Below, piece by piece: positions 2,266 to 54,570 of a stretch of 64,000 bases of DNA. The translations under genes and the position numbers were made by a program. This DNA is from Kappaphycus alvarezii (taxonomy: Eukaryota > Rhodophyta > Florideophyceae > Gigartinales > Solieriaceae), in the NCBI GenBank assembly GCA_002205965.3, contig NADL03000144.1, positions 62,001-126,000 of the forward strand, read 5' to 3'. The notes below the pieces were generated by a model. It saw nothing but the letters and a program-made list of their open reading frames with translations, was not told the DNA's origin and ran no database searches. Numbering within the stretch: the first letter of the stretch is position 1; every line of letters starts with the position of its first letter.

Positions 2266-2572
2266 AAACCACCTTTGACCTCTCATACATTCCTATACGG
2301 CTCATAGGTCGTCTAATAAGCATTTAGGAATTAAGAGGGCTAGCCATTATCAAAAATGGCATGCGTGCTCTAAAGTGTTGATCTGATGATCAGGAGATAT
2401 ATCATGCGAATAAGAATAGCTCTTTATCGAAGAATGAAGTATTCGTCGATAAACAGCCATACGTCGTTATTCCATCTCTTTAATTTTGCATTCACAAAAC
2501 TCGTCTGAGTATCCTTGTAATCACAGCAAACCATACAATATGATATAATGAAAATTGTAGATATTCCTTGGC

Positions 2573-2680
2573 ATGCTGCGCTGGCTGAGTTGGCTGCGCT
2601 GGCTGAGTTGGCATGCTGCGCTGGCCGAGTTGGCATGCTGTGCTGGCTGAGTTGGCATGCTGCGCTGGCTGAGCTGTCAC
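2573..2680 (+). repeat. Tandem repeats in U3 of element A
   Basis: About five degenerate units of roughly 20-22 bp built on GCATGCTGCGCTGGCTGAGT. The right LTR has the same array (about 7,725-7,825) with small length differences. The position upstream of the TATATAA box suggests repeated promoter or enhancer sites; that role is inferred. Confidence 0.8.
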
Positions 2681-2896
2681 TGTACTTAAATTATATTTTT
2701 AATTATTTTTAGAGGGATGCTTTGCACTGTACTGTGGCGGTGCAGATTTGGCACATAGGTACTGTATAGATGCTACAGATAGTGAGGGTTGAAAACTCTA
2801 TATAAGGGGCTGTTTGCATGAAATGGTAGGACTACTTGGGAGCCAGCATACCCGAGCGGGGCGCTCAACAAGTTAAGTCAAACACAAAGCATAAAG

Positions 2897-2954
2897 GAAG
2901 TTGGCAGACAACTTCAAGCCAAGTCCGAGTAGTAGGAAGTTGAGAGTCAACTTC
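2897..2954 (+). promoter_or_regulatory. Two tandem RNA hairpins in the LTR leader
   Basis: GAAGTTG-GCAGA-CAACTTC (2,897-2,915) is a perfect 7-bp stem; 21 bases later GAAGTTGA-GAG-TCAACTTC (2,936-2,954) is a perfect 8-bp stem. They lie about 100-150 bases after the TATA box, so they should be at the start of the element's RNA. The first stem and most of the second are kept in the right LTR and in both solo LTRs. The two stems are also complementary to each other. A role in dimerisation, packaging or translation is inferred. Confidence 0.6.
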
Positions 2955-3169
2955 AGACCCAAGAAAACTTTTTCTTACGCTAGTCGCAGAGCGTCGGTGG
3001 TAGACCCTGCCCCTTTTATACTTGCTTGTAGCTTCCTCAACTCTCTTCTATATACACTCCCTTTTGTTCGTTCAACAATACCACGCAGCACTTTTGTCGC
3101 TCGCAACACCTCCTTCTCAGGGTAATTGGTTCTGAGGATCTCTTCTCCCGCCGATTTACCCCTATCATT

Positions 3170-3187
3170 TGGTACTCTTGTGGAGGG
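3170..3187 (+). promoter_or_regulatory. Primer-binding site of element A
   Basis: TGGTACTCTTGTGGAGGG lies two bases after the left LTR. It begins with the TGG expected from the complement of a tRNA CCA end. Element C has TGGTACTCTTGCGCAGGG at the same place, so the two elements appear to use the same or a very similar tRNA primer. I cannot say which tRNA. Confidence 0.65.
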
Positions 3188-3337
3188 GGTTGCACCCGAG
3201 GTATTCGAGTTGAGCAGTAGTAAGGAACACTTCGGGGGATTTCTTTTCGGTAATCATGGATCTCAACGCTGCTCGTATAACGTTCACAGGGCAAGACTGA
3301 AGACGTTGAGGAGTTTCTTTACACATATGTCAACGTT

Positions 3338-4937
3338 GTGATGCGAGAGAAGGGCGATGAAGAGAAGGCCGCAAGTATCTTCGCCTATCTTCATGGTGAC
3401 GCAAAGCACAAATATAAGTCCAAGTTTATCGACGGGTGGTCTCTTAACGGGAATGGGCGTAACTTCGGTGAGGTATGTGAGTGGCTTGTGAAAGAGTATG
3501 CTAAGGAGGTAGAACCAGATGAGATGATTCGTACGCCATAGAGGCCCGGCTCAACTTCGACGATTTGTTAAGCTCATTGGTGTACTTGTGTGATCTTTAT
3601 GAAAAGGCTGGGTTCAACGCCCAAGCCAAGTACGGAATGCTGCGTAAGGCGGCTATGGGGGATAAGCGGCTCTCCGATTTCCTCCTATCAAGGGCCCTCA
3701 CACTTTTGATGAACTGAAGGGTACCATAGTAGAATTTGTCAAAAATTCGGAGACGTTTCAGTCACTGAGTGAGGTACCGAGGGAAACCCGCACATCGATG
3801 TCTATCGTACATCCTGAAAAGAATTATCAAAGGCCGGCTACTAGTGCAGCGGCATTAGAATCTGTCAGGAGCGATGTCAAAAACTTGGAAGAAAGGTTGG
3901 AAACCCGATTCGATAATCGACTTGACATGATAACCTCGCAGTTGGAAAGCCTTACTCTTACCATTAAGAAGAACCAGTCTGGGGCCCCTAAGGCCGCAGA
4001 AGTCTGTTCTTACTGTCACAAGCCTGGACACTTTGCAAACAGGTGTCCTGATAATCCACATAGAAACACTCGTTGTGCAAAGTGCGGTCGATATGGGCAT
4101 CATGAAAGTAACTGCTGGTCTAAAGACAACAGAAGAGCAAATTTATCGGAAGCAAGGAGTGAGTCAGGACCAGAGGTGAAAATCTTACAAAATAGAAGGG
4201 ATCAAAGGTTGACGGATGCCGGTAACGTATCCATCGCTGAAGAGATTAGTCAAGTCAATGTGACAAAAAGGGATGGGGAAGGGAACATTTTATCGAAGAA
4301 ACCTAGGCTAGAGTATGGAATGCTGGAGCATATCCCAGCACCTGTACCTCCTCGAACCAAGAGGTCTGATCAAGTTGTTCCAGGAGTGGGAGTCACTCCG
4401 GCCAAGAAGACGAAAAAGAGTAAGAAAGTTAAGAGTATCTCTAAGGACGTACTAGAGTATGTGAAGAGGTACAATTTGGTGGCTGAGCTTGCATCGGCCC
4501 CAACTGGGATAACGTTTGGTCAACTTTTGAGGGGCGACGCAGAGGATGCGAGAAAAGAACTCAAAAAAATTATCAGGTCTAATAAGTCCGCTAAGGGTAA
4601 GAAACTGTTTCTTCAATCGGCCTCGACAGCACCAAGACGTCTTAAGCTGGTACCAGTCAAAGTATTGGGTATGAAAACCCAAGCTCTCTTCGATTCGGGT
4701 GCTGTTCCAAACCTCATTTCAGAAACTTTGGTGACAGATCTAGGTCTCGAAATTACTCCAACGACTCGAAAAATAACTGTAGCGGATGGAACCGTCTCAA
4801 AATGCATGGGCACTGTTGACAAGGTTTCCGTGTTCTTTGGGGACTCTAAAGTTGATGTAGACTTTCTTGTCATGCCGGATCTCCCTTTCGATGCAATCAT
4901 TGGCTGCCCACATGGAAAGACTAGGGACATGCATTGA
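3338..4937 (+). mobile_element. Element A gag and protease region
   Basis: Capsid-like sequence (3,338-3,780, helical and charged), then the open frame 3,798-4,937 with two zinc knuckles, CSYCHKPGHFANRC and CAKCGRYGHHESNC, separated by the linker PDNPHRNTR. Downstream in the same frame is a retropepsin-like segment with the catalytic DSGA triad region (ALFDSGAVPNLI) and a flap-like stretch up to FDAIIGC. The double knuckle with an NPHRNTR linker is also found in element C, which makes A and C members of one lineage. Confidence 0.85.
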
Positions 4938-5442
4938 CTTGGGCAACCAAATGGTTTCAGTTAATATTGACGGCAGAACCGTGAAGATGCCCCTGGATTT
5001 CGACAAAAGCACGCATCCTGAAGATTTAAAAGAAACGGACAGTGAAGATTTCACTTCTAGCTATGACAGCGAAGATTCGGAACCAACTAACACTTTCGGA
5101 AGTGGAAAAGGGTACCCTCGGGGGTAATGAACATGGCATGGGACGATTATGATTCGGGTTTGAAACAGATGACGACTGGAATTCTAGGATAAGTTTGAAA
5201 CCCGAATGTGTTTCTTTTTGCGATGATATCGAATCAAAGGACAGAATTCGGAGCATGAAAGAAGATTACCTTTGCAAAGAAAATAAGAATACGTCGAATT
5301 CCATATATGAAGATGTGAGCACGACGGAAGAGGTCCTTCAAAATATTGAGGTTGAGGATCAAGAAGAAAAAGGGCGCCAAATGGCAGAAATCCAAGGAAA
5401 AGTGCAGCACCTTCCCGCCCCGCCTCACTGAAAATATCCGAC

Positions 5443-7014
5443 ATGTTAACATCTTCCGAAGTAATTGCATGGAGCGTTTCAGATTTAAGACAAGCAAGTG
5501 TACCGGTTACTCACTCGTTCGAACTTACCGACACTCAACCGATTTACCACAAGCCTAGACGTCAACCGCCAAAATATGACCAATTTATCTCAGAAAATGT
5601 TACAAGTATGCTGAAAAATGATATTATTCGACCAGTTTCATCCCCATGGTCGTTTCCAGTTGTGGTCGCACCAAAGAAGGATGGAAAGCTGCGTTTTTGC
5701 GTCGATTACCGACAACTGAACCAGAGAATGATACCCGATCGATTTCCGATTCCGAACATGGAGGAGATCCTCGAGGACCTGAAGGACGGGAGATATTTCA
5801 CCTCAATTGACCTTTACACTGGCTATTGGCAGATTCCATTGGATGAAAAATGTAAGGAAAAAACAACCTTTACCAGCAAAGCCGGTACGTTTCGAAGTGA
5901 TGCCTTTTGGTCTCATGAATGCACCAGCTACATTCCAAAGAAATGAACGAGGTTTTGAAAGGACTTCCATTCGCAAGAGTCTATATCGATGATGTCGTCA
6001 TATTCTCAGAAACATTGGATCAGCACATCTCGCACGTCAAGACAGTTGTGGAGAGGATATCGGAGTATAGCTTGAAAATTAAGTTGAGCAAATGCTTCTT
6101 TGCGAAAACTTCTATCCAATTACTCGGTCATATCGTCGACCAAGAGGGAATTAGAGTGGATCCAGAGAAAACGAAAAAAATAAAGTTGGCACCAAGGCCC
6201 GCTTCAAAGACGGAGGTCCGAAGCTTCTTAGGACTGGCCTCATATTACAGAAGATTTATCAAAGATTTCGCCAAGACTGCAGCACCGTTACATGCCAGCA
6301 CTACGAAGAACGGAAAATTTACTGGAACAAGGAAATGGAAACTGCATTTCAGGAGCTTAAAGATAAGCTATGTGTCCCCCAGTTCTCATGTACCCAGATT
6401 TCAAGAGACCATTCGTTGTGGAGACAGATGCCTCAGAACGGTCTTTGGGTGCCGTTTTGTCCCAAAAAGATGAAAACGGAAGACTACACCCTGTTCAATT
6501 CGCAAGCCGAACTCTGAATGATGCGGAAAAGAGATACTCAGTCTGCGAGAAAGAAGCGCTAGCTGTCGTCTTCGCGCTGAAAAAGTTTCGCGTATACCTT
6601 TTATCACTCGAGAAATTTGTCTTGATAACTGATCACCAGGCACTTAAAACAGCATTCCAAAAGAAGGATGTACATCACCGCTTGGCCCGATGGCTCGACA
6701 TTTTCGCAGAATATCGGTTTGAAATTGTGTATAGACCCGGACGCAATAATCAGCCTGCCGATTACCTATCCCGCTTGAGGGACGCACTGATTCCAAATGA
6801 AAAAGCTTCGGAGGACATCGTCGGAGTCGCCGAGTTGCAGTTGCCGAACGATAACGAGTACGAAGCTAATATTCACGGACTGATCAAATTCCTCGATGGA
6901 CTAGAAATGAGAAAGGTTGATCTTGAACACGAAATTGGGTACGCAGGAATCAAAAGGCTTTTACATTGTGGAATGGGAAACTCTTCCGGCACACTAAAGC
7001 CGGTCCCCGACTAG
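5443..7014 (+). mobile_element. Element A reverse transcriptase and RNase H region
   Basis: Typical Ty3/gypsy polymerase sequence: SPWSFPVVVAPKKDGKLRFC and VDYRQLN (fingers), FTSIDLYTGYWQIPL (motif A), VYIDDVVIFS (motif C with the YIDD catalytic pair), LGHIVDQEGIRVDPEK and FLGLASYYRRFIKDF (thumb and connection). RNase H follows with VVETDASERSLGAVL, EKRYSVCEKEALAVVFALKK and LITDHQAL, ending with RPGRNNQPADYLSR. Confidence 0.9.
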
Positions 7015-7079
7015 TGGCCCCTTTGAAAGAATGAAGATCTTGAGGACTTTCCATGATGAGGGCATTGGGATCTCGAAAC

Positions 7080-7610
7080 AACCAAAAAATTCGTAACTGA
7101 GAGATTCTGGTGGCCCGGTATCCATAAGGACGTCTATAATTTCGTGAAAAGCTGCGACAACTGCCAAAAATTCACTCCAATACGGAAGTATAAGACAACT
7201 CTAAGTTTTCCAGTTTCCGGTCTCTTTGAAACCTTCTCAATTGACTTGCGGGCCCGTTCAAGGAAACTTCTTCCGGAAACAAATATCTCCTTATAGGAAC
7301 ATCTTACTGGATGGCCAATAGCAGTTGCAGTGAGGAGGCAAATGCTGAGTGGTACTGAGATTCATCGAAAAAGAAATAATTGAACCGTTTGGTCTTCCAA
7401 AAAGGATCATCTCGGATAACGCCCTTTGTTTTACTGCAACTTCACTGCTTCGTTTTTGGAAGAGAAAGGATTCAGCTGAAGACAGTTCTCGACTACGCTC
7501 TTATGTCAAACGGAAAAGCCAAAAAGATGATTGGAACTATCAAACGCGCACCTACTTTTTGGAATATTTTATAGGTAATCAACTGCATCCCTATTCGTTT
7601 GAAAGGCCTC
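7080..7610 (+). mobile_element. Element A integrase remnant
   Basis: Integrase-like sequence follows RNase H: a Cys-x2-Cys pair typical of the N-terminal zinc domain (SCDNCQKF near 7,150) and core motifs such as FGLPKRIISDNALCF near 7,390-7,430. The C-terminal part before the right LTR is short. No chromodomain was recognised. Confidence 0.75.
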
Positions 7611-7693
7611 ATGTTTTAACAATAAGGCAAATTACATTAATAAACAGAAGAAGAATGATGACGAGTCGGGACGTTCGTCTTGAGCGAGGGGCG

Positions 7694-8305
7694 TGATATA
7701 ATGAAAATTGTAGATATTCCTTGGCATGCTGCGCTGGCTGAGTTGCTGCTGGCTGAGTTGGCATGCTGCGCTGGCCGAGTTGGCATGCTGCTGGCTGAGT
7801 TGGCATGCTGCGCTGGCTGAGCTGTCACTGTACTTACAATTATATTTTTAATTATTTTTAGAGGATGCTTTGCACTGTACTGTGGCGGTGCAGATTTGGC
7901 ACATAGGTACTGTATAGATGCTACAGATAGTGAGGGTTGAAAACTCTATATAAGGGTTTGCATGAAATGGTAGGACTACTTGGGAGCCAGCATACCCGAG
8001 CGGGGCGCTCAACAAGTTAAGTCAAACACAAAGCATAAAGGAAGTTGGCAGACAACTTCAAGCCAAGTCCGAGTAGTAGGAATTGAAAGTCAACTTCAGA
8101 CCCAAGAAAACTTTTTCTTACGCTAGTCGCAGAGCGTCGGTGGTAGACCCTGCCCCTTTTATACTTGCTTGTAGCTTCCTCAACTCTCTTCTATATACAC
8201 TCCCTTTTGTTCGTTCAACAATACCACAGCACTTTTGTCGCTCGCAACACCTCCTTCTCAGGGTAATTGGTTCTGAGATCTCTTCTCCCGCCGATTTACC
8301 TATCA
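7694..8305 (+). repeat. Element A 3' LTR
   Basis: 612-bp LTR, partner of 2,541-3,167, TATATAA at 7,947-7,953. It is followed at once by the CAATA target duplication. Compared with the left LTR it shows almost no base substitutions. Confidence 0.93.
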
Positions 8306-32680: not shown

Positions 32681-33566
32681 CTATTCTTCCGTCCCAAAGT
32701 CTTCCAACGAACGTTGGGCTTGAATGGCCAAATTCTTTGCCGCGCATGACAACACAAGCTCAAAAGGAGCTAAGTTCGTAGTCATGTGGACTTGAGAGTT
32801 GTATGCGTACGTTAACGCACGTGTGAACAAGCCCCAATACTTGGGATGATCAGCCATATAAGGCCAAGGTAGCCATAATTTTTCTGTTGAACCTTTCCGC
32901 TTGACCATTGGCCGGAGCATATTACCTAGTCGTGAAGACTTCACTGATCCCTAGGACCCTTTACACGTTCTGAAAGAACTTTGATGTGAATTTGGTCCAT
33001 TTATCGAACAATAACTTGGCCGGGGGGCATAAAAAATAGCCAATCATGCACAAATGCATAGGAAACTGCTGCTGCAGTGATTCTTTTGAGAGGAACTGTT
33101 CGAACTAGTTTCGAATATCGATAGGTTATTACCAAAATGTTACGATGAACACTTTTGGTCTTGATCAACTCACCTAAAAGGTCAATCGAATAAAATCCAA
33201 ATGAGCATCTGGGGGAAAGATCTTCAGTTCCTTACGGTTTTTCCGCAAGCTGACCCGGTTGCGGGCACAATTACAATGCCGTACTACGGCGTAACAATCC
33301 ATGGCCATAGAGGGCCAGTATAAATCCTTCGATAAGGACTTGTACATCCGTCTCTCTCCTGGGTGACCTGAGGTTCGGGCATAGTGCCTTATTCGTACCA
33401 CCCTGTCTTGTAAAGACATTTGAATAACAATCGGTATCCTGTTTGAGGATAAGCGACATTGGTAACCTTCGTAAGGTGTGGCCGTCATGGAGAAAGGTAT
33501 AAGTTCTCCCTTATCCATCTTTGCCTTTATGGCTTCGCAAAAAGGATCTGCATCCTCTTCTCGCAA
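32681..33566 (-). mobile_element. Element B integrase region
   Basis: Minus strand: RIRHYARTSGHPGERRMYKS and LYWPSMAMDCYAVVRHCNCA form the HHCC zinc domain (H, H, C, C). Downstream, 32,681-32,944 has KLWLPWPYMADHPKYWGLF and RALTYAYNSQVHMTTNLAPF, the end of the integrase core. Confidence 0.75.
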
Positions 33567-33722
33567 CTCTTCTGGAGTTATAGCAACTAATGCATCAAGT
33601 TCTGCATCAAAATCATTGCTCTCGAGAGCATTGACTTGGTCTAAGATATCATCGTAATTGTCAATTTTCTGTTTAGGATTTTCTCTTTTAGCATCCTCTT
33701 CACATAGGAGACACGTTGTAGT

Positions 33723-34692
33723 TTATTCACATAAGAGACATGGAATCTCTTCTTTAACGTCAACTGAGGTACCGCCTTCGGTTTCAAGACGCGACAGCGC
33801 GTAAGCTTGCTTGTTGGTACGCTCTGTCTTATACTTTACTTCAAAGTCATACTCAATTAAGGGAAGACGCCATCTTGTCAAACGTCCTGATGGATCTTTG
33901 ACATTCATCAGCCATCTACACTGCTAAGCACTCCAATTCTGGTACAGAGTATTTTTTTTCAGTATCGAGAAGTGTTCTCGAGAAAAACCCTATTGGTTTT
34001 CGTTCACCATCCAGGTGACTCTGGAATAACACAGCCCAAAGCTGTACTTTGGAATCATCCGTATCTGCGGAGTATTGAAACCCTGGCTTAGGTAGAGCCA
34101 GCACCAGTGGTGAAATAATCGCCTCCGTCAATTCATGGAAAGCTTGTTCCTCGTCATGACCAAAAGGTCTTAAATTAACAGGTTCTCCTTTTCTCTGATA
34201 GGTTGTTCAAAGGATGCGCTATGCTCCTGAAATCCTTATTGAAGCGCCTGTATACATTACAGAGTCCCAAAAAGCTTTTTTGCTGAGTGTGGGTTTTTGG
34301 CATCTTTGCCTCTCGTAATGCCGTAAGACGGACTTCATCTATCTCAAGCCTTCCTGGCTTAATAATATGACCGGGATATTTAATCTTATTGGTGAAGAAT
34401 TCACGTTTTCTTAGCTTTGAAGTAATGCCTGCCCTTTGAGGGGTCTTTAAGATTTCATCCACATGATGAATGTGTTCCTCGCCACTGGAAGAGAAGATGA
34501 TTACGTCATCTACGTATGTGATACATGTTGTCCACTTGTACGGCGACAAAAGAATGTCGATAGCACATTGAAACGTGGCTGGTGGGTCGGTTCAGCCAAA
34601 GGGCATCTGTAGGAAACGTAACAGACCACTGTGGTAAGTGAATGCCGTTTTTCCCGATCTTCTTTCGCGAAGGGGATCCTCCAGTATCCCAA
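33723..34692 (-). mobile_element. Element B reverse transcriptase and RNase H
   Basis: Minus strand: MGYWRIPFA (motif A end), TCITYVDDVIIFSSSGEEHI (motif C, YVDD), YPGHIIKPGRLEIDE and FLGLCNVYRRFNKDFRSIAH (thumb), then RNase H with FQYSADTDDSKVQLWAVLF and LDTEKKYSVPELECLAV, and the distal MNVKDPSGRLTRWRLPLIEY. Confidence 0.85.
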
Positions 34693-42776: not shown

Positions 42777-43120
42777 TGTTGCCACCCTCTGTTGGCCGTG
42801 GGCGGAGTGAGAAAATAAAAAAGAAAAAGTAAAAGTAGAAAAGGATTGGGTGGCCGTCCCCCAGGGTTCGTTGTCTCCCCCACTTTTCACTCCCCGGCAG
42901 GCCCGGTAGGGGTTTATATGCGGGTGAGCAGTGGGTGGCAACACCAGGTTGAACTACAAACTGCCTACTTAAAAATTAAAAATAATCATAAAATTGTAGA
43001 AAATAACTAAAAAATAGACCAGACTACAGTAGCTCCAGTGTAGGGGGCCGTAGAAAAAAAATGCGTCATACAATTGCCCAAATTCATACACTTTCTAGAA
43101 GCATCCACGAGCTCACGACA
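42777..43120 (-). repeat. Element C 3' LTR
   Basis: 344-bp LTR, on the minus strand TGTCGTGAGC...GGCAACA. Partner of 49,719-50,059. The purine-rich GGAGCCGGGTGG (minus strand) lies directly next to its inner edge and serves as candidate polypurine tract. Confidence 0.9.
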
Positions 43121-43406: not shown

Positions 43407-43781
43407 ATGGCGAGGACCAACCAGACCGCCAGGAAATCAAGCGGGGGAAAACCTCCCCGAAAGCAACTTTGGCAGAAAGCGGCTCGAAAGACCGTGGGCG
43501 AACTCTTGCCCCGCAACAACCCGGTCATCTCGAAATCTCCCGGTCCGTCGTCCGAGCCCTATCGGAACGCAGAATACTTTCACGTCGACAGTCTTCGTAA
43601 GGGTGTGAGCGAAAGTAAAGTGACTACGCATTCGAATCGACCAGATACGATCAAAATTCAGAAATCAAAGGTCAAGGGTCCTTCGCTCAACGACGTCTTC
43701 TTTTGGCTTTCGTTTGGAGGTTTCCTATCAGGAGCTGGAAACGCTATATGGAAAGAAAATCGCGAACTTCGTGGCTTCTAA
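43407..43781 (+). CDS. Antisense ORF with histone H3 tail-like N-terminus
   Basis: A 124-codon frame with an ATG start, on the strand opposite gag-pol, 287 bases inside the 3' LTR of element C. Residues 1-28 align with the histone H3 tail without gaps, 23 of 28 identical. It opens MARTNQTARKSSGGK and continues PPRKQLWQKAARK. In H3 numbering the changes are K4N, T11S, A15P, A24W and T25Q. R2, R8, K9, S10, K14, R17, K18, K23, R26 and K27 are kept, so both ARKS/ARKT-type sites are present. After residue 28 the similarity stops: no H3 core helices follow, and the rest is basic, then ends with a hydrophobic FFWLSFGGFLSGAG. Coding-like sequence continues downstream to about 44.8 kb. By H3 biology, the kept lysines are those read by HP1/Polycomb-type chromodomains and acetyl-readers; a chromatin-targeting or decoy role is inferred. 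Confidence 0.75.
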   Translation: MARTNQTARKSSGGKPPRKQLWQKAARKTVGELLPRNNPVISKSPGPSSEPYRNAEYFHVDSLRKGVSESKVTTHSNRPDTIKIQKSKVKGPSLNDVFFWLSFGGFLSGAGNAIWKENRELRGF

Positions 43782-44123
43782 GGAATGTGTGGACGGCATT
43801 GACAGGGATCTTGCGGTTCGACTTAGCTTGACAGAGTCGCTCGCCGATGAGGATGATTATTTGGAGTTCCCGAGTTTCCCGAATGAATAATTTCGTCTGT
43901 TGTTTGGAGAGCTCCAGAAGGATTTAGCGACAGCTCCGCGGGCCGCTATTACGCTGTCGGTGAGGAAACCGAAGAAGAGCACCCGATCGACCTCTATACC
44001 TTTTCCTTCAACGAGATACCTCCGGGTTACGCTGACCACAATCCGTCTAAGCGTAACCTCCGGGAAGAAGAAGGCGAACGATCAATCATCAGCAAGGCCT
44101 TTGGCAGGAATCTGAGTTCGAGA

Positions 44124-44558
44124 GTGGGAGTCATCCTGCAGATCGATCGTTGGTGTCAGAAGAATCCGAATGAACACTTTTTGCGTGTTATTTCCGATGT
44201 CGAGGGTACCCTACCTTCCTTCGTCACCGCATCTCTTCTCTTGGACCTTGTCGTGCGCTTCAGGGACTTCGAGGGGCGCTGCATGCAAGCTGCAGTCGCG
44301 AACCCCATTTCCCTTATCTTCGGTCCGGGCCCGGCGGATAACTACTGGAAGACGGATTACCTCCGCGATCACGACACTTTAGAGCAGCTTGGCTATCGCC
44401 CTAGGTCTATTTCCTTTGCCGACGACGTCCAAAGGGTTTATACGAAGTCTTCTAAGATCTCGTGGTTCTGCGCCACGTTAGGCCTTCTAAGGGTTTATCC
44501 AACGCACCAAAGCAGCCTTCGTCGTGAAGTGAGTCCTCCATTGATGCTGACTGGATGA
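44124..44558 (+). CDS. Antisense gene-like region of element C, downstream part
   Basis: 144-codon plus-strand frame with globular composition: ILQIDRWCQKNPNEHFLRVI, LLLDLVVRFRDFEGRCMQAA, FGPGPADNYWKTDYLRDHDT, RSISFADDVQRVYTKSSKIS and FCATLGLLRVYP. Further frames with coding character follow to about 44,800. It lies on the same strand as the H3-like ORF. No family recognised. The SFADDVQRV block weakly resembles EFIDDRWHGV in element B's antisense region. Confidence 0.5.
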   Translation: MGVILQIDRWCQKNPNEHFLRVISDVEGTLPSFVTASLLLDLVVRFRDFEGRCMQAAVANPISLIFGPGPADNYWKTDYLRDHDTLEQLGYRPRSISFADDVQRVYTKSSKISWFCATLGLLRVYPTHQSSLRREVSPPLMLTG

Positions 44559-45115
44559 AAACGTTGCCAAGTTCTCCTGATCGCGGGATTTATGTCGCGG
44601 CCGTTATAGGGCGACTTGGGTCGCAGCATGCGTTTGCCTTGACGCAAGAGAAGAGCCCATCCTTATCTACGATTGCGCAGAGAAACACGCCATGCGGTTT
44701 TCCAATGAGTCTCTCAAGATATGTTGCGGCGAGGAGAATCCGGAGGATTTCTTGAAACTGGACGACGTGCGCGTGTAGTCCCTCTGAATGGAAAGGGTGT
44801 TCCCTTCGCGAGTCGACGATTCTCAAGCCTTCGGATTCAGCGAACAAGAAGCGTCGCCGGCGCCGTTCGAGGGCCTCTCTTGCCTCTTCCTCCGACCGCA
44901 AACGCTCCAGTGCGGCACACCGACGCTGAACACCCGTTCCTTCTTGGATGCTTCCTTATGTCCTCGCGTGCTGCCCTTCAATGTTGTAGAAGAGCCTGAT
45001 ATAGTTGTAAAGCGATAAGATGATTCAGATTGTACTCAAAGAAAGAAATGTAACAAAGAAATTCGTAGCATGAAATAGAAAACTAGAATCCGTCATCTAC
45101 AGGACTCCTCGGGAA

Positions 45116-46259
45116 TCAATTTTGTAGGAACGACGGGCGAAGAGCGTAGGGCGCTAGGCGCCTCGCGTGAATAGCTCCCCGGGAGCACCTGCCCCCGTGA
45201 GAAAGCAGCCAGTACCGTGGGTGGGCTACCTTCCAAACTCGACAAGGTCCGAAGAAACGGGACCGAAGCGCCGGCCATTTGACCGTGGAAATTAAGGCCT
45301 GTCCGTGTGCGACTAGGACCCAATCACCTACATTAAACCTTGCCGGGGTCCCAGGTCTATCTCCGTCAGCACCGCGTTGCAACTGCGCCTCGACCCTGTT
45401 GCCCGTAAGGCTAGTCCAGCTAGGAGTTCCACTCGGCGATGTACGTTGGAAGCATTCGCTATCAGTGAGACAGCATCGATGGGTTCAGGCGTGGCGCACC
45501 CCGAACATTAGCTCGAATGGCGAGGCTCCCGTTGTTAGGGGCCGGCGGCGGTATCCATACAAGACACGTGGGAGGCAACTGTCCCAATCGGCCTTCTGCC
45601 CAATTACCATTTTTTAATCCCAGCCTTGATGGTGCGGACCATTCTTTCGGCGCGGCCATTCGACATAGGAGCGTAGGCGAGCACGGTACTCCAACTCACT
45701 CCGTTCTTCTTCATGAAATCAACGAGGGCAGAGGCTGTAAAGCATCCCGCATTGTCAGAGATGATATTCTTTGGCGGTCCGAAAAGGGAGACGATCTCCT
45801 TCTGCACGAACTCGATCACGACTTCAGCCGATGCGTTCTTCGTGGCAGCGGCGATAGGCCACCCGGTCAGATGTTCGACGGCGATAAGAAGAAATTTATT
45901 ACCCAGACGAGACTCCGGGAATGGCCCTGCGAAGTCAATCGAGTATGTTTCGAAGACATTCGTGAGCGGAATCCCCAATGTTGTCCGATACGGAATCAAC
46001 GGGCTCGCCCTCTGGCAGGCCTCACAGCTCTTCACGTAGTCTTGGATGTCTTGATAGACTTGGGGCCACCAAAAGCGATCAGTAACGAATTTTTCGTTGT
46101 TTCCTTATTCCAATGACCGATATCGTCATGAAAAGTCCTTAATATGTCGTCTGTCTTGATGGCCGGTATCGTGCGAAGACCGTTCTTAGTACGCCTCAGT
46201 AACTTACCCTCCCAGAGCATAAAATATTTGGCGGCACGCTTAATAGAGCGGCGCTTCAC
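45116..46259 (-). mobile_element. Element C integrase region
   Basis: Minus strand: zinc-domain sequence with FHDDIGHWNKETTK and KSCEACQRA (HHCC type), core motifs SIDFAGPFPE, IVEH-like sequence, FGPPKNIISDNAGCF and AYAPMSNGRAERMVRTIK (D, D, E block), and a C-terminal RFNVGDWVLVAHGQA...FFGPCRVWKV domain ending in HARRLAPY. No chromodomain seen after it. Confidence 0.88.
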
Positions 46260-46298: not shown

Positions 46299-47729
46299 CT
46301 ACGTCGATAAGTGAGGTTCCAACACGGTCTCGTCGACAACGGCGCCGCCGGATCCTACCGTTGCCACCAAATCGCCTTCATCGGCGTCCGGTGCGGCCGA
46401 GCAATCATCCGGTATTACGCGCGAAAGGTAGTCAGCAGCGCCGTTCCCGGCTCCGGGACGGTACTCCACCTCGAACTCGTATTCGGCTAGAAAATCTAAC
46501 CAGCGCGCTAACCTCCCATGAACATCGCTCTTCTTGAAAGCATAACGGAGGGCTTGGTGGTCCGTAACCAATTTGAACGGTATTGTCGACAGCAAATACA
46601 CTCGAAACTTCTTGAGTGCGAAAATAAGCGAGAGCCTCTCTTTCACATGCCGAGTAGTTCCGTTCCGACGAGTTCATAGTCCTACTTGCGAACTGTATTG
46701 GATGTATCTTTCCATCTTCTTTCTTCTGTGCAAGAACCGCTCCGATGGCACACTTGAGGCATCAGTTTCGACAATAAACGGCGTTTCGAAATCCGGAAAA
46801 GCCAGAAGAGGCGGAGAAGTGAGCTTGTCCTTTAAATTCTCGAATGCTTCCATCATCTCGGCCGTCCAGATGAAGTCCTTGTTTCCCGAGGTCGCGGAAT
46901 GCAGAGCGGCTGAAACCTCGGCGAATCCTTTGATGAACCGGCGATAATAGCCAGCAAGTCCGAGAAAGCTGCGCAGCTCAGTCGTGTTCCTTGGTACTGG
47001 AGCCTCCTTGATTGCTTTAATCTTCTCCTCATCCACGTGAACTCCATTCTTGTCAACTCGGTGTCCGAGCAAGCTAACTATCGGTTTTGCGAACTCGCAT
47101 TTCGTAATCTTGAGCTTCAGTCCGGCTTTCTGAATGGCTTTGAACACACGCTTTAAGTGCTCAACGTGTTCCTCTATGGAATGTGAGAACACCACAACAT
47201 CATCCAGGTAAACACGGGCAAAGGGAATTTCTCGCAGAATAAAGTCCATCATACGTTGAAAGGTCGACGGTGCGTTCATCAGGCCGAACGGCATGACCTC
47301 AAACTTGAAGGTTCCGTAACGACAAACAAAAGTTGGTCATCTCCTTACAGTCCTCGCTCACGCGAACCTGCCAATATCCGGCGAATAAATCGAGGGTGGT
47401 GAACACTGAGCAACCTTCCAAGTCGTCGAATATTTCTTCGATCTTGGGAAGCGGCCAACGGTCCGCCTTCATCCTGCGGTTCAGAGTGCGGTAGTCCACG
47501 CAAAATCGAGGCTTCCCGTCCTTTTTGGTCGCGATGACGACGGGAAACGACCAAGCGGAGGCAGCGGGGTCACTATTCCTGCTTCCAACATCTTATTGAT
47601 CTCTTGGCGGACGGTTTCGTTATGTCGAGGCGCTAAACGACGAGCCCTTGATAGATTGGGGTCGGATCCTTTAACTCGAATTTGTGCTCCACCGGGACCG
47701 ACGCGGGACGGAGCTCGTCGATCGTCCAT
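46299..47729 (-). mobile_element. Element C reverse transcriptase and RNase H
   Basis: Minus strand: SRARRLAPRHNETVRQEINK, DYRTLNRRMKADRWPLPKIE, FTTLDLFAGYWQVRV (motif A), MPFGLMNAPSTFQRMMDFIL (motif B), ARVYLDDVVVFSHSIEEHVE (motif C, YLDD), LGHRVDKNGVHVDEEK, FLGLAGYYRRFIKGFAE; RNase H has FIVETDASSVPSERF, ACEREAL, VTDHQALRYAF and EYRPGAGNGAADYLSR. Confidence 0.9.
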
Positions 47730-48460: not shown

Positions 48461-49830
48461 TTAGATGCAACGTCTGCGTCCCCACGAAGGAGTTGGCCAA
48501 AAGTAAGTCCACAGTTGGCAGTCGCCAGTTCCGAGACAACGTCGTACTTTCCGACGTATTCTTGTATCTTGTCTGCCTTCTTCTTTCCTCGTTGGTCTTC
48601 TTGGCCTTCTTCTTTCGATCAACTTCTCGAAATTGGCCTGCGGGTAGTTCGGTCCCGCCTGCGGAGGGCGAGCTGCTTGAGGGCTAGCTACGAGGCGGGA
48701 TATCGGAATGCCTCCATAAGATTCTTGTCGGGGTTGCTTCGGAAGCGCTTCGCCGTCTGCATTTCTCTTCGTGACGTTGACGCCTTCTTCTTCCGATGAT
48801 CCCATGTCGGCCGATTCTTCACGGAGAACATTCACTTTCCCAGACTCTTCGCCTTCTTCTTTGGGCTTTTCCTTAACATCAGACTTTCTCGACGGCGCGG
48901 ACCAGCACGTGGCCTCCGAGTGTCCCATCCTGCCGCAGTGACCACAACGGGTATTGCGGTGCGGGTTCTTCTCGCACCTCGAGGCTGTGTGACCCATCTC
49001 ATTGCAGTAGGAGCACTGCCTAACCCGGTTGTTCTTCTGGATGCCCGTAGAGGTCCGGCCACCGGATCCCCCTTCTTGTTCTTTAGAAACAGCGTAAGCC
49101 GGGAAAGGTCTTCTGCCAAAGCATCTACCTTGTTCTCATGTTCCTCGAACGAGTCTGGACGAACCATTGCTTTGCGGGCGAGACATTGGCGATGGGTTTG
49201 AGGGCCAGCGAAGGCGAGTTGGTTCGAATGAAAGTCCCTTAAAGCCTTGACGTATCTGAGTAATCCTTAGGTCCGCGGAATGACAGAAATTGCTGTAGCT
49301 CCTTGTAACGACAGGCGCGGTGCGAAGTAACCAAATCTTGCGATATTGTCGAACCCTGCCTTCTCGTAGAGTCTTTCCATCTCTTTAGTGAGCCAGGGAT
49401 ATCGGAGATCTCTAGGCCGATCTCCAAGGCTTGACGAATAATGTCTTAGGGTCTTCTTTTTGACAAAATGATCGAAAAAGCGAGCTTTGACGGCGGTATA
49501 GTTCTTCGCCTCATCAAGTAACGCCCGTTCGACGCGAAGGTGCATAGTAGAAGTCAAACGCCACTCCATCCAGATGACGAGGAGAGCGAGGGCTTTCTCC
49601 TCCTCGGATTTAGAGACCATGATGACGTTCTCGAAGAAGAAGAAGAATTTTCGCACGTCGCTTGACCCACAAAAACGACGGAGCTGGGCCGGGCGTCCGT
49701 CCCTGCGCAAGAGTACCATGTTGCCGCCCTTGTTGGTGTGGGCGGAGGGAGAAAAGAAAAAAAGAAAAAGTAAAAATAGAAAAGGATTGGGTGGCCGTCC
49801 CCCAGGGTTCGTTGTCTCCCCCCTTTTCAC
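48461..49830 (-). mobile_element. Element C gag region
   Basis: Capsid-like sequence (49.8-49.2 kb, with RVERALLDEAKNYTAVKARF) followed by two CCHC knuckles: CSYCNEMGHTASRC and CGHCGRMGHSEATC, joined by EKNPHRNTR. The knuckle linker matches that of element A. A basic and acidic stretch follows toward the protease. Confidence 0.85.
49701..49718 (-). promoter_or_regulatory. Primer-binding site of element C
   Basis: TGGTACTCTTGCGCAGGG on the minus strand, directly adjoining the 5' LTR. Its first 11 bases equal those of element A's site. Confidence 0.75.
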
Positions 49831-50059
49831 TCCCGGCAGGCCCGGCAGGGTTTATATGCGGGTGAGCAGTGGGTGGCAACACCAGGTTGAACTACACACT
49901 GCCCACCTAAAAATTAAAAAATAATCATAAAATTGTAGAAAATAACTAAAAAATAGACCAGACTACAGTAGCTCCAGTGTAGGGGCCGTAGAAATAAAAA
50001 TGCGTCATACAATTGCCCAAATTCATACACTTTCTAGAAGCATCCACGAGCTCACGACA
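49719..50059 (-). repeat. Element C 5' LTR
   Basis: 341-bp LTR, partner of 42,777-43,120, differing by a handful of substitutions and several length changes in A- and C-runs. Confidence 0.9.
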
Positions 50060-53275: not shown

Positions 53276-54570
53276 ATGAGACTCTCTAACTTTTATTTTT
53301 GCTCTGGCCTGCTGTTATCAATTTGCTCAGTCTCAAGATTCATGTCTCTTCAACAGTACTCATTGTGCCTGTACCGTAGCGAGCGTCACAGGGCTGTGTT
53401 CTCGTTTTTCATCTGGTGTCGAGGCAGCTGCGACTTGCGTTGTCGACAACTGCCTGCCAAACAGCTATGTTTGTGACTGTGCAGGGCCGGATATCTGTGA
53501 TGTTCGCTCATGCAACGCATGGGTTCCCGACAATCCAGCCGATGTGACGAGCGTTGGAGATATCATTCCGTGTACATATGTGGTTGACGCAGTACATTGC
53601 CTCTCTCCGATTGCTTCAAGCCCAAGCCCGAGTGTATCAGCTCGCGACCCCCAGTGGATCCCCGGTTCCTAGCTCCAGTTCCTCCAGTGCTCCATCTGCT
53701 AGTGCGCTCCCGAGCAGTATGGCTAGTACGAGCGCGACGCCGAGCGTCACATCTAGCCCCCTACCAAGTAGCTCAAACTCTCCAGCAATGCCCAGTCCAA
53801 CGTCAAGCTCGACACCAACACCGTCGCCAAGCTATAGCCCAACCAACAGCCCAAGTTATAGCCCAACCAACAGCCCAAGTTATAGCCCAACCAACAGCCC
53901 AAGTTATAGCCCAACCAACAGCCCAAGTTATAGCCCAACCAACAGCCCAAGTTATAGCCCAACCAGCAGTCCGAGCTAGCCCCACTCCAAGCGCAGCCGG
54001 AGAATACCGAATGGTGCAAGTTGGTGCTGCTAGTGACGCTAACATGTTTAACATGTCAGCATTCACAGATCCCAGTGACTTTATCACGACGACGTTCAAT
54101 ATGAGAAATGGATGGCCCTACCCGCACCTTCTTGAACACCGTATGTACACAGTGATTTTTATGTGAATGAGGCTGGAGACACTCACTTTCTATGCGTCAT
54201 TATGAACACTTACACTGCTGGGGATGATTTCCGTGGCACTCAGGCAACTGATGTAACTGTGACAGGTGTGAATGGGCAGACTTTGAACTACGTTGCTTGC
54301 GATGATGTGACTGACTGCCGGTCACGAGCGGCGTGACCATATCATCATTCTTCGGGAACTTTGGATATCAAACCGATGGTTTCTGTGTGGCACCAATTGA
54401 AAATGATGGGAATTCAGTGACAATTCGCTAACTGGTATTCAACGGGCAAGGGGTATTCGTTTCTTGTCTCCGGGTGATATAACAGAAAAAGAGTATATGT
54501 TTGTAGATGGGCCTGGAAATGGTCTGACAGGAACTGTGATTCGACTGGTCTTGTAACGAACGGGGAAATT
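53276..54570 (+). pseudogene. Secreted cysteine-rich protein with Ser/Pro linker, broken
   Basis: The ATG at 53,276 opens MRLSNF; after one change of frame in a T-run the sequence gives a hydrophobic signal-peptide core (IFALACCYQFAQS) and then a cysteine-rich module to about 53,630 with some 13 cysteines (THCACTVASVTGLC, TCVVDNCLPNSYVCDCAG, DVRSCNAWV). A second frame change leads into a Ser/Pro/Thr-rich linker (53,644-53,979) ending in six SYSPTNSP octads. Further frames carry AGEYRMVQVGAASDANMFNM, DFITTTFNMRNGWPY, GDTHFLCVIMNTYTAGDDF, GVTISSFFGNFGYQTDGFCV and a final GNGLTGTVIRLVL, which look like one extracellular beta-rich domain. At least four frame changes. Host gene, probably cell-surface or wall; no family name assigned. 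Confidence 0.5.
53830..53973 (+). repeat. 24-bp minisatellite encoding CTD-like octads
   Basis: Six 24-bp units (AGTTATAGCCCAACCAACAG followed by CCCA) in frame, each encoding SYSPTNSP; the last is SYSPTSSP. The units are nearly identical at DNA level, so the array expanded recently. SYSPTxSP is close to the YSPTSPS heptad of RNA polymerase II, but the context is a secreted Ser/Pro linker and no polymerase sequence adjoins it. Confidence 0.9.

Follow-up and report, generated by a model that had tools for sequence, protein, structure and literature searches.

An antisense gene beginning with a diverged histone H3 tail lies between pol and the 3' LTR in a Ty3/gypsy lineage of Kappaphycus alvarezii

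The window analysed here is a stretch of 64,000 nucleotides from the red alga Kappaphycus alvarezii. It contains a Ty3/gypsy element on the minus strand, in which a pair of LTRs flanks gag-pol. Reverse transcriptase (RT), RNase H (46404-46640) and integrase (IN) follow each other in the order expected for Ty3/gypsy elements, and the coding sequence is broken by frame shifts. The gag piece is matched by PF16588 above the cut-off and by zf-CCHC below it (E 0.033). On the opposite strand, between pol and the 3' LTR, the ORF list of the window gives an open reading frame (ORF) of 124 amino acids, which starts with an ATG 287 bp from the LTR, as an earlier note on this DNA had stated. The coordinates of the element and of the antisense gene are collected in Table 1.

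Table 1. Features of the Ty3/gypsy element and its antisense gene in the window
Feature	Position	Strand	Remark
3' LTR	~42777..43120	-	direct repeat with 49713-50059, 94.6% identical; boundaries by alignment
H3-tail-like codons (Met plus 28)	43407..43493	+	23/29 identical to H3
124-aa ORF, tail and first part of antisense protein	43407..43781	+	ends at a frame break peculiar to the window copy
Gene continuation, other frame, decayed	43624..43887	+	resembles open stretches of L009, L023, L026, L027
223-aa open piece with conserved GRC Cys motif	~43887..44558	+	part matches L027 protein
C-terminal part, SQH and IYDCAE motifs, two frames in window copy	44528..44775	+	
Basic C-terminal end, KKRRRRR-type	44756..44929	+	conserved K/R columns
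Integrase C-terminal part, end of pol	45119..45484	-	without Pfam match
Integrase core, open piece	45607..46101	-	homologous L009 piece matches PF17921, PF00665
RT/RNase H piece	46677..47336 (RT extends to 47529)	-	PF00078 E 1.6e-19, PF17919 E 3.9e-12
gag piece, zinc knuckle-like fingers	48464..49135	-	PF16588 E 4.8e-6; homologous L009 ORF
5' LTR	~49713..50059	-	pair of 42777-43120

Other repeats are present in the same window. A second Ty3/gypsy element occupies positions 2541-8305 of the plus strand, between LTRs (2541-3167 and 7694-8305) that are 97% identical; its RT is about 50% identical to that of the first element, and no antisense H3-tail gene was found in it by tblastn. Remains of a third gypsy-type element lie on the minus strand at 33177-34642, with an Integrase_H2C2 match in 33177-33722 and an RT match in 34202-34642. 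A tandem repeat at 53803-53994 codes for PSYSPTNS units reminiscent of a CTD-like repeat, and a Cys-rich, secreted-looking stretch is found near it at 53280-53669.

The antisense ORF begins like the tail of histone H3. When it is aligned without gaps to canonical H3, 23 of 29 positions are identical, the initiator Met counted, and H3 chains of the PDB match residues 1-30 in a phmmer search with E = 1.5e-6 (best 60 of 130 matches). The match from the initiator Met on the strand opposite gag-pol, which the earlier note had reported, is therefore real. Chance similarity can be ruled out, as the best 29-mer in each of 20 random windows of matched dinucleotide composition reached 9-10 identities to H3; the second-best 29-mer of the real window reached 9. 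The equivalents of K9, S10, K14, K18, K23 and K27 are retained in the window copy and K4 is Asn, again in agreement with the earlier description.

The likeness to H3 stops at residue 28-30 of the antisense protein. When residues 30-125 of the window ORF and six other copies were compared with the H3 core, the score was reached by 54-798 of 1000 shuffles, whereas no shuffle reached the score of the tail in the same test. All seven copies thus stand at shuffle level after the tail, where no histone fold was detected and Pfam gave no histone match. One gapped phmmer alignment, between the protein of locus L027 and some H3 chains, runs to residue 112-114 with an overall E of 1.2e-4; this extension is no signal, because the part after the tail is no better than shuffles. 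The insertion of a whole H3 gene is ruled out by these results, and the likeness is limited to the tail, as had been claimed.

Comparison with other copies indicates that the 124-aa ORF forms the 5' portion of a longer gene, of about 500 codons, that has since decayed. The frame singled out at first is a real, ATG-initiated ORF, but its end is not the natural end of the gene, which continues in shifted frames. The same order of pieces is found in copies that are open as they stand (L027, 431 aa; L026, 362 aa; L023, 349 aa), and these open stretches end before the C-terminal end that is seen in L017 and L024. From the Met to the C-terminal end there are about 508 codons in the window copy and 520 in L017. 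Positions 43872-44432 of the window (C143:105872-106432) match the L027 protein at 48%. The longest open piece of the window copy has 223 aa, a length that 2 of 500 shuffles preserving the dinucleotides of this region also attained, and the plus-strand frames were supported weakly by codon-usage scoring.

No Pfam family was found above the cut-off in the L027 protein (428 aa), in the L023, L017, L019 and L024 pieces or in the antisense pieces of the window; the best matches below the cut-off (E 0.062 and 0.34) were to unrelated families, and the TRP28 domain (PF04195) was absent from the same set. In the PDB, no relatives beyond H3-type chains appeared among the best 60 of 125 and the best 60 of 135 matches, and a profile of the C-terminal part gave two weak antibody matches only (E 0.15 and 1.2). 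Queries P0002 (7996 candidates scored) and P0001 (27) found no relatives in a collection seemingly containing few or no eukaryotic proteins; this result says little, because P0001 retrieved no H3 either. Scans of a viral contig collection found no relative of the antisense protein, and the AlphaFold model of the 223-aa piece was unusable (pLDDT 31.5).

Candidate Cys, His and Asp columns can be recognised in the alignment of the C-terminal part, conserved in 26 of 34, 25 of 30 and 23 of 30 rows, respectively (mean column, 69%), with other columns conserved equally well. In L017 they are separated by about 117 and then 15 residues. Josephin-type peptidases have a similar Cys-His-Asp spacing. A peptidase is a possible reading of this arrangement, drawn from three columns without a profile match. 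The K/R columns of the basic end are highly conserved (for example, 24/24 and 23/24).

A single genome, a 336-Mb assembly of 884 contigs, was searched for further copies. With the 124-aa ORF as query, 150 of 356 candidates gave scored matches (E 6e-80 to 5e-4), among which are the window's own match and those of three H3 genes of the host (L029-L031). These 150 matches do not equal 150 separate elements, because a single locus is sometimes represented by two rows and some contigs look like duplicates. In 89 of the alignments, the H3 genes among them, the match starts at residue 1-3, and 78 of these 89 extend to residue 60. The L027 protein (428 aa) gave at least 115 matches among those listed (98 of 820 candidates scored). 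Matches to the body that start past residue 1 were checked upstream in seven cases: a whole or broken H3-like tail was seen by eye in five (L049, L051, L052, L054, L055), L050 is without a tail, and in L053 the upstream sequence has been replaced. The tail is consequently present in other copies of the family.

The element context is repeated as well. In 15 of 20 loci (L009-L028, 9.1 kb each) the tail gene is antisense to the adjoining IN-RT block, with the shared layout LTR - tail - body / IN - RT - gag - LTR, and an LTR pair is detectable in 14 of these 15. Five loci (L011, L013, L014, L018 and L020) look nested or truncated. At L018:7054-7872 (minus strand) a copy of the antisense gene is open into a LINE-type-looking repeat, apparently a nested insertion. 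Most copies, that of the window included, are decayed. The current work shows that a Ty3/gypsy lineage carries an antisense gene between pol and the 3' LTR, coding for a protein of about 500 aa that starts with a diverged version of H3 residues 1-28. It is thus the element family itself that codes for the tail.

The tail is common to subfamilies A, B and C, each well sampled, and to two groups known from a single copy each (D, locus L024, and E). The same groups are separated in trees of RT and of the antisense gene, the latter without L015, which had too few residues. Support for A is 0.999 in both; for C it is 0.998 (RT) and 1.000 (antisense), for C with L024 0.996 and 1.000, and B stands apart from the rest with 0.988 and 0.997. 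Most simply, the antisense gene would already have been present in the common ancestor of A, B, C and L024.

In some related elements no such gene was found. From 85 RT loci with no listed antisense match, seven were chosen and checked. A B-type tail is present at L060, and L064:1166-2402 is the one copy of family E, with a tail 19/29 identical to H3 and a body 27-28% identical to A and C. No antisense tail gene was found in the 2.9 kb fetched at the other five of the seven, and presence in all relatives of the element is thus rejected. The gene is not essential to the superfamily, because related elements without it in the stretch exist; from these comparisons it is an accessory module and not a fixed part of all relatives. 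At L061:1096-1815 (minus strand), close to this 3' position, lies an ORF in sense orientation that codes for C2H2 zinc fingers (PF12171, E 2.7e-11); another accessory gene may have taken the same slot there. At L063:2-1501 a long open sense frame runs past the integrase end, with 500 aa in the stretch and without a Pfam match.

Selection on the tail was analysed in 38 element rows (the window, L009-L028 and L032-L048), from which L001-L008 had been dropped as duplicates or the window and L029-L031 as host H3; groups A, B and C comprise 33 of these rows, L024, L032, L034, L035 and L036 being left out. Within the groups, omega of the tail is 0.21 in A (95% limits 0.11-0.39), 0.49 in B (0.32-0.76) and 0.29 in C (0.12-0.70), so that all upper limits are below 1. 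In the next 77 codons it is 0.38, 0.38 and 0.36. Nominally, the tail evolves more slowly than the body in A and C but not in B, with overlapping intervals and a column bootstrap that ignores relatedness. Between subfamilies the likeness of the tail is 0.543 versus 0.407 for the next 77 residues, a difference with a 95% interval of 0.004-0.261 from a bootstrap that also ignores relatedness; by range, the likeness is 0.53-0.71 for the tail, 0.58-0.69 for RT, 0.42-0.60 for IN and 0.46-0.54 for gag, which places the tail at about the level of RT.

Divergence between the subfamilies is concentrated at third codon positions. Between A and B the mismatch of the tail at the three positions is 0.37/0.30/0.63; over all comparisons among A, B and C, the third position differs at 0.63-0.67 and the first two at 0.30-0.39. 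Synonymous differences (pS) between subfamilies are 0.70-0.84, near saturation. Compared with the three host H3 genes, pS is 0.64-0.92 and pN 0.22-0.30; over subfamily and host comparisons together pN is 0.22-0.36; no more than 14-23 synonymous sites per pair contribute to these values for the tail. Synonymous change has thus come close to saturation in a tail that is still H3-like, which makes the tail old and marks it as under purifying selection; for A, B and C, codon comparison indicates that such selection keeps it. The near-saturated synonymous sites also lead to the rejection of gene conversion from the three host H3 genes compared, and, together with the genome-wide matches, they rule out a recent fusion with host H3 in one copy.

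The view that the tail is a passive relic, captured H3 sequence carried without function, finds some room in the broken state of the window copy and many others and in the related elements without the gene. Both omega, which is below 1 in each of A, B and C, and the divergence biased to position 3 between them tell against it, and it must be considered extremely improbable. On the sequence comparisons it is contradicted for the family as a whole, though true of the one decayed copy in the window. Convergence, in which a basic N-terminal tail was selected toward H3 for import or binding without the capture of an H3 gene, would agree with the missing H3 likeness past residue ~30, with synonymous sites that show no shared descent with host H3, and with the three complete host H3 genes, which have no intron at residue 28. 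However, 19-23 ungapped identities in 29 positions, counted from the initiator Met in several diverged groups, would be hard to reach in this way, and convergence appears quite improbable.

Over the 38 rows, the positions of the tail most often identical to H3 are Q5 (94%), K27 (92%), T3 (91%), the initiator Met (90%), L20 (89%) and K23 (89%), and the least often identical are R2 (3%), T22 (3%) and S28 (0%). K27 is found in 35/38 rows and K9 in 22/34, Lys at 14 in 10/38 and Lys at 18 in 12/38. Subfamily A keeps K9, S10, K14, K18, K23 and K27, like the window copy. B mostly has Arg at 14 and 18, and Lys replaces R8 in 16/19 rows; in C, K4 is kept, K9 is Arg in 4/5 rows, K14 is Arg and K18 is Leu; D keeps K4 and has Arg at 14; the E copy has T14, N23 and Gly at 27. 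Each H3 tail lysine is replaced in at least one group representative. T3, Q5, T6, A7, S10, T11, G13, P16, R17, L20 and A24 are kept in all representatives of A-E, a list made after the fact from five groups, two of them single copies, in which the D row lacks residues 0-2. Single decayed copies vary; the window copy, for example, has Ser at 11.

According to the earlier note, methylation of K9 and K27 like that of H3 might steer the element to heterochromatin or decoy silencing readers, while K4-directed factors are avoided. This logic is not supported by the comparison of groups: K4 is present in C and L024, and the lysines are not general in the family. Because they are replaced across groups, K9/K27 steering with avoidance of K4 factors is not the general function of the tail. 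A protein methylated in this way, which recruits or titrates readers of the HP1/PRC2 type, would fit the lysines and S10 of A and the window copy and the frequency of K27 and K9; Arg at 9 in C, Lys at 8 in B, Gly at 27 in E and the scarcity of Lys at 14 and 18 make it unlikely.

As an antagonist of H3 writers, the protein would act as a pseudosubstrate that keeps the recognition context, has its target lysines swapped and competes, unmodified, for acetyl- or methyltransferases. The eleven non-lysine positions held in A-E, together with the replacement of every tail lysine in one group or another (K4 by Asn, K14 and K18 by Arg, Leu or Thr, K9 by Arg), speak for it. However, K23 and K27 stay Lys in the A-D representatives, A keeps five lysines, an exchange of Lys for Arg fits plain charge conservation too, and the pattern is post hoc, from five groups with two single copies. 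This reading is rather improbable, if slightly less so than convergence. The same low rank is given to a wider version, in which the lineage would have domesticated the H3 tail against the H3 writers, with the surface kept, the lysines exchanged, the H3-modifying enzymes blocked or hijacked and a possible protease acting on the catch.

The first residues might also serve as a tether to mitotic chromosomes, with a free Ala1 and Thr3 imitating the N-terminus of H3T3ph or Sgo1 and binding the BIR-type pocket of the chromosomal passenger complex. Ala1 is found in 27/31 and Thr3 in 29/32 rows, and the N-terminus of Sgo1 (Ala-Lys-Glu-Arg) binds Survivin much like H3T3ph (PMC9253516). Such a tether would leave the conservation past residue 4 unexplained, and we consider it very unlikely.

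In yeast, H3 residues 1-28 are a nuclear import signal for Kap123, which needs K14 between small residues and then K23, with K14R of minor effect (PMC5677370). In general form, the signal is a Lys flanked by small residues, with another Lys 7 or more residues further on. The tail of the antisense protein has the same length, and the representatives of A-D carry Gly at 13, Lys or Arg at 14 and Lys at 23; at 15, a position for which Kap123 favours Gly or Ala, subfamily A has Pro, and E (T14, N23) breaks the rule. In H3 the 1-28 signal serves the histone itself. Residues 1-11 of H3 are not ordered by Kap123, and import alone is for this reason insufficient for T3, Q5, T6, A7, S10 and T11. The kept first half of the tail suggests a further partner besides Kap123. 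The basic C-terminus could be an alternative import signal.

Taken together, the reading to which we tentatively give the most weight, though short of an even chance, is that the captured H3 tail works as an address for import and docking, attached to an accessory protein that possibly has a catalytic Cys-His-Asp domain. The tail would already have been present in the common ancestor of the groups, after a single capture from an H3 gene. It would serve as a portable H3 address that allows karyopherins of the H3 type to bring the protein into the nucleus, and through the invariant N-terminal half of the tail the protein would dock to factors that grip H3 tails. In this way the papain-like Cys...His...Asp arrangement and the basic C-terminus would be brought to the histone or chromatin machinery, where the protein may help integration or oppose silencing. 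Since no profile search backs the peptidase reading, an address joined to a possible enzyme is what we infer.

Chromoviruses are Ty3/gypsy elements with a chromodomain at the integrase C-terminus, which engages H3 tails. They read the H3 tail, whereas the present lineage imitates it; the integrase C-terminal piece of the window has no Pfam match. The closest parallel in gene arrangement is Retand, a Ty3/gypsy group of plants with antisense ORFs between pol and the 3' LTR (PMC11963269). The elements described here similarly have an antisense accessory gene at this place. In Retand, TRP28 is found in nearly all clusters (PMC11963269), whereas the gene described here has an H3 tail followed by a body that no Pfam family matches, and the word histone is absent from the available main text of the Retand paper (PMC11963269). 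The host also differs from the plant hosts of Retand, as phycobilisome domains are present in its genome. Three matches to the phycobilisome domain PF00502 were found in the assembly, in keeping with a red algal host, and two of the three lie on contigs about 2 Mb long. Loci L056 and L057 (G000 C74 and C669) carry such an ORF, one of the two on a contig of this size. As a rule, phycobilisome genes are plastid-encoded. The L056/L057 ORF is possibly a nuclear copy or transfer.

Parasite proteins that resemble the H3 tail are known from viruses, such as influenza NS1 (ARSK), adenovirus protein VII and SARS-CoV-2 ORF8 (ARKS) (PMC10208167). The likeness to the present case lies in the imitation itself; the viral mimics are short motifs of 4-5 residues in that account (PMC10208167), whereas here the whole tail, 1-28, is found at the true N-terminus across several groups. 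Histone H3 has also been captured by hAT transposons in Dothideomycetes, in many copies, and in P. fijiensis all hAT H3 copies except the original were inactivated by RIP (PMC6710886). There, H3 sequence is carried by a DNA transposon; here the tail alone begins an antisense gene under purifying selection. Among the papers listed, mostly outside subscription journals and judged by titles and the openings of abstracts, no precedent for an H3 tail in a retrotransposon gene was found, although this does not prove that there is none.

The published parasite mimics of H3 that were found consist of short motifs, and in this lineage a whole tail has been held under selection until synonymous sites were near saturation. 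The family of tails is therefore a natural mutational scan of the residues that a host factor must recognise, and with it the encounter of retrotransposons with the histone import or silencing machinery can be addressed directly. Moreover, antisense accessory genes of Ty3/gypsy elements are extended beyond the plant case.
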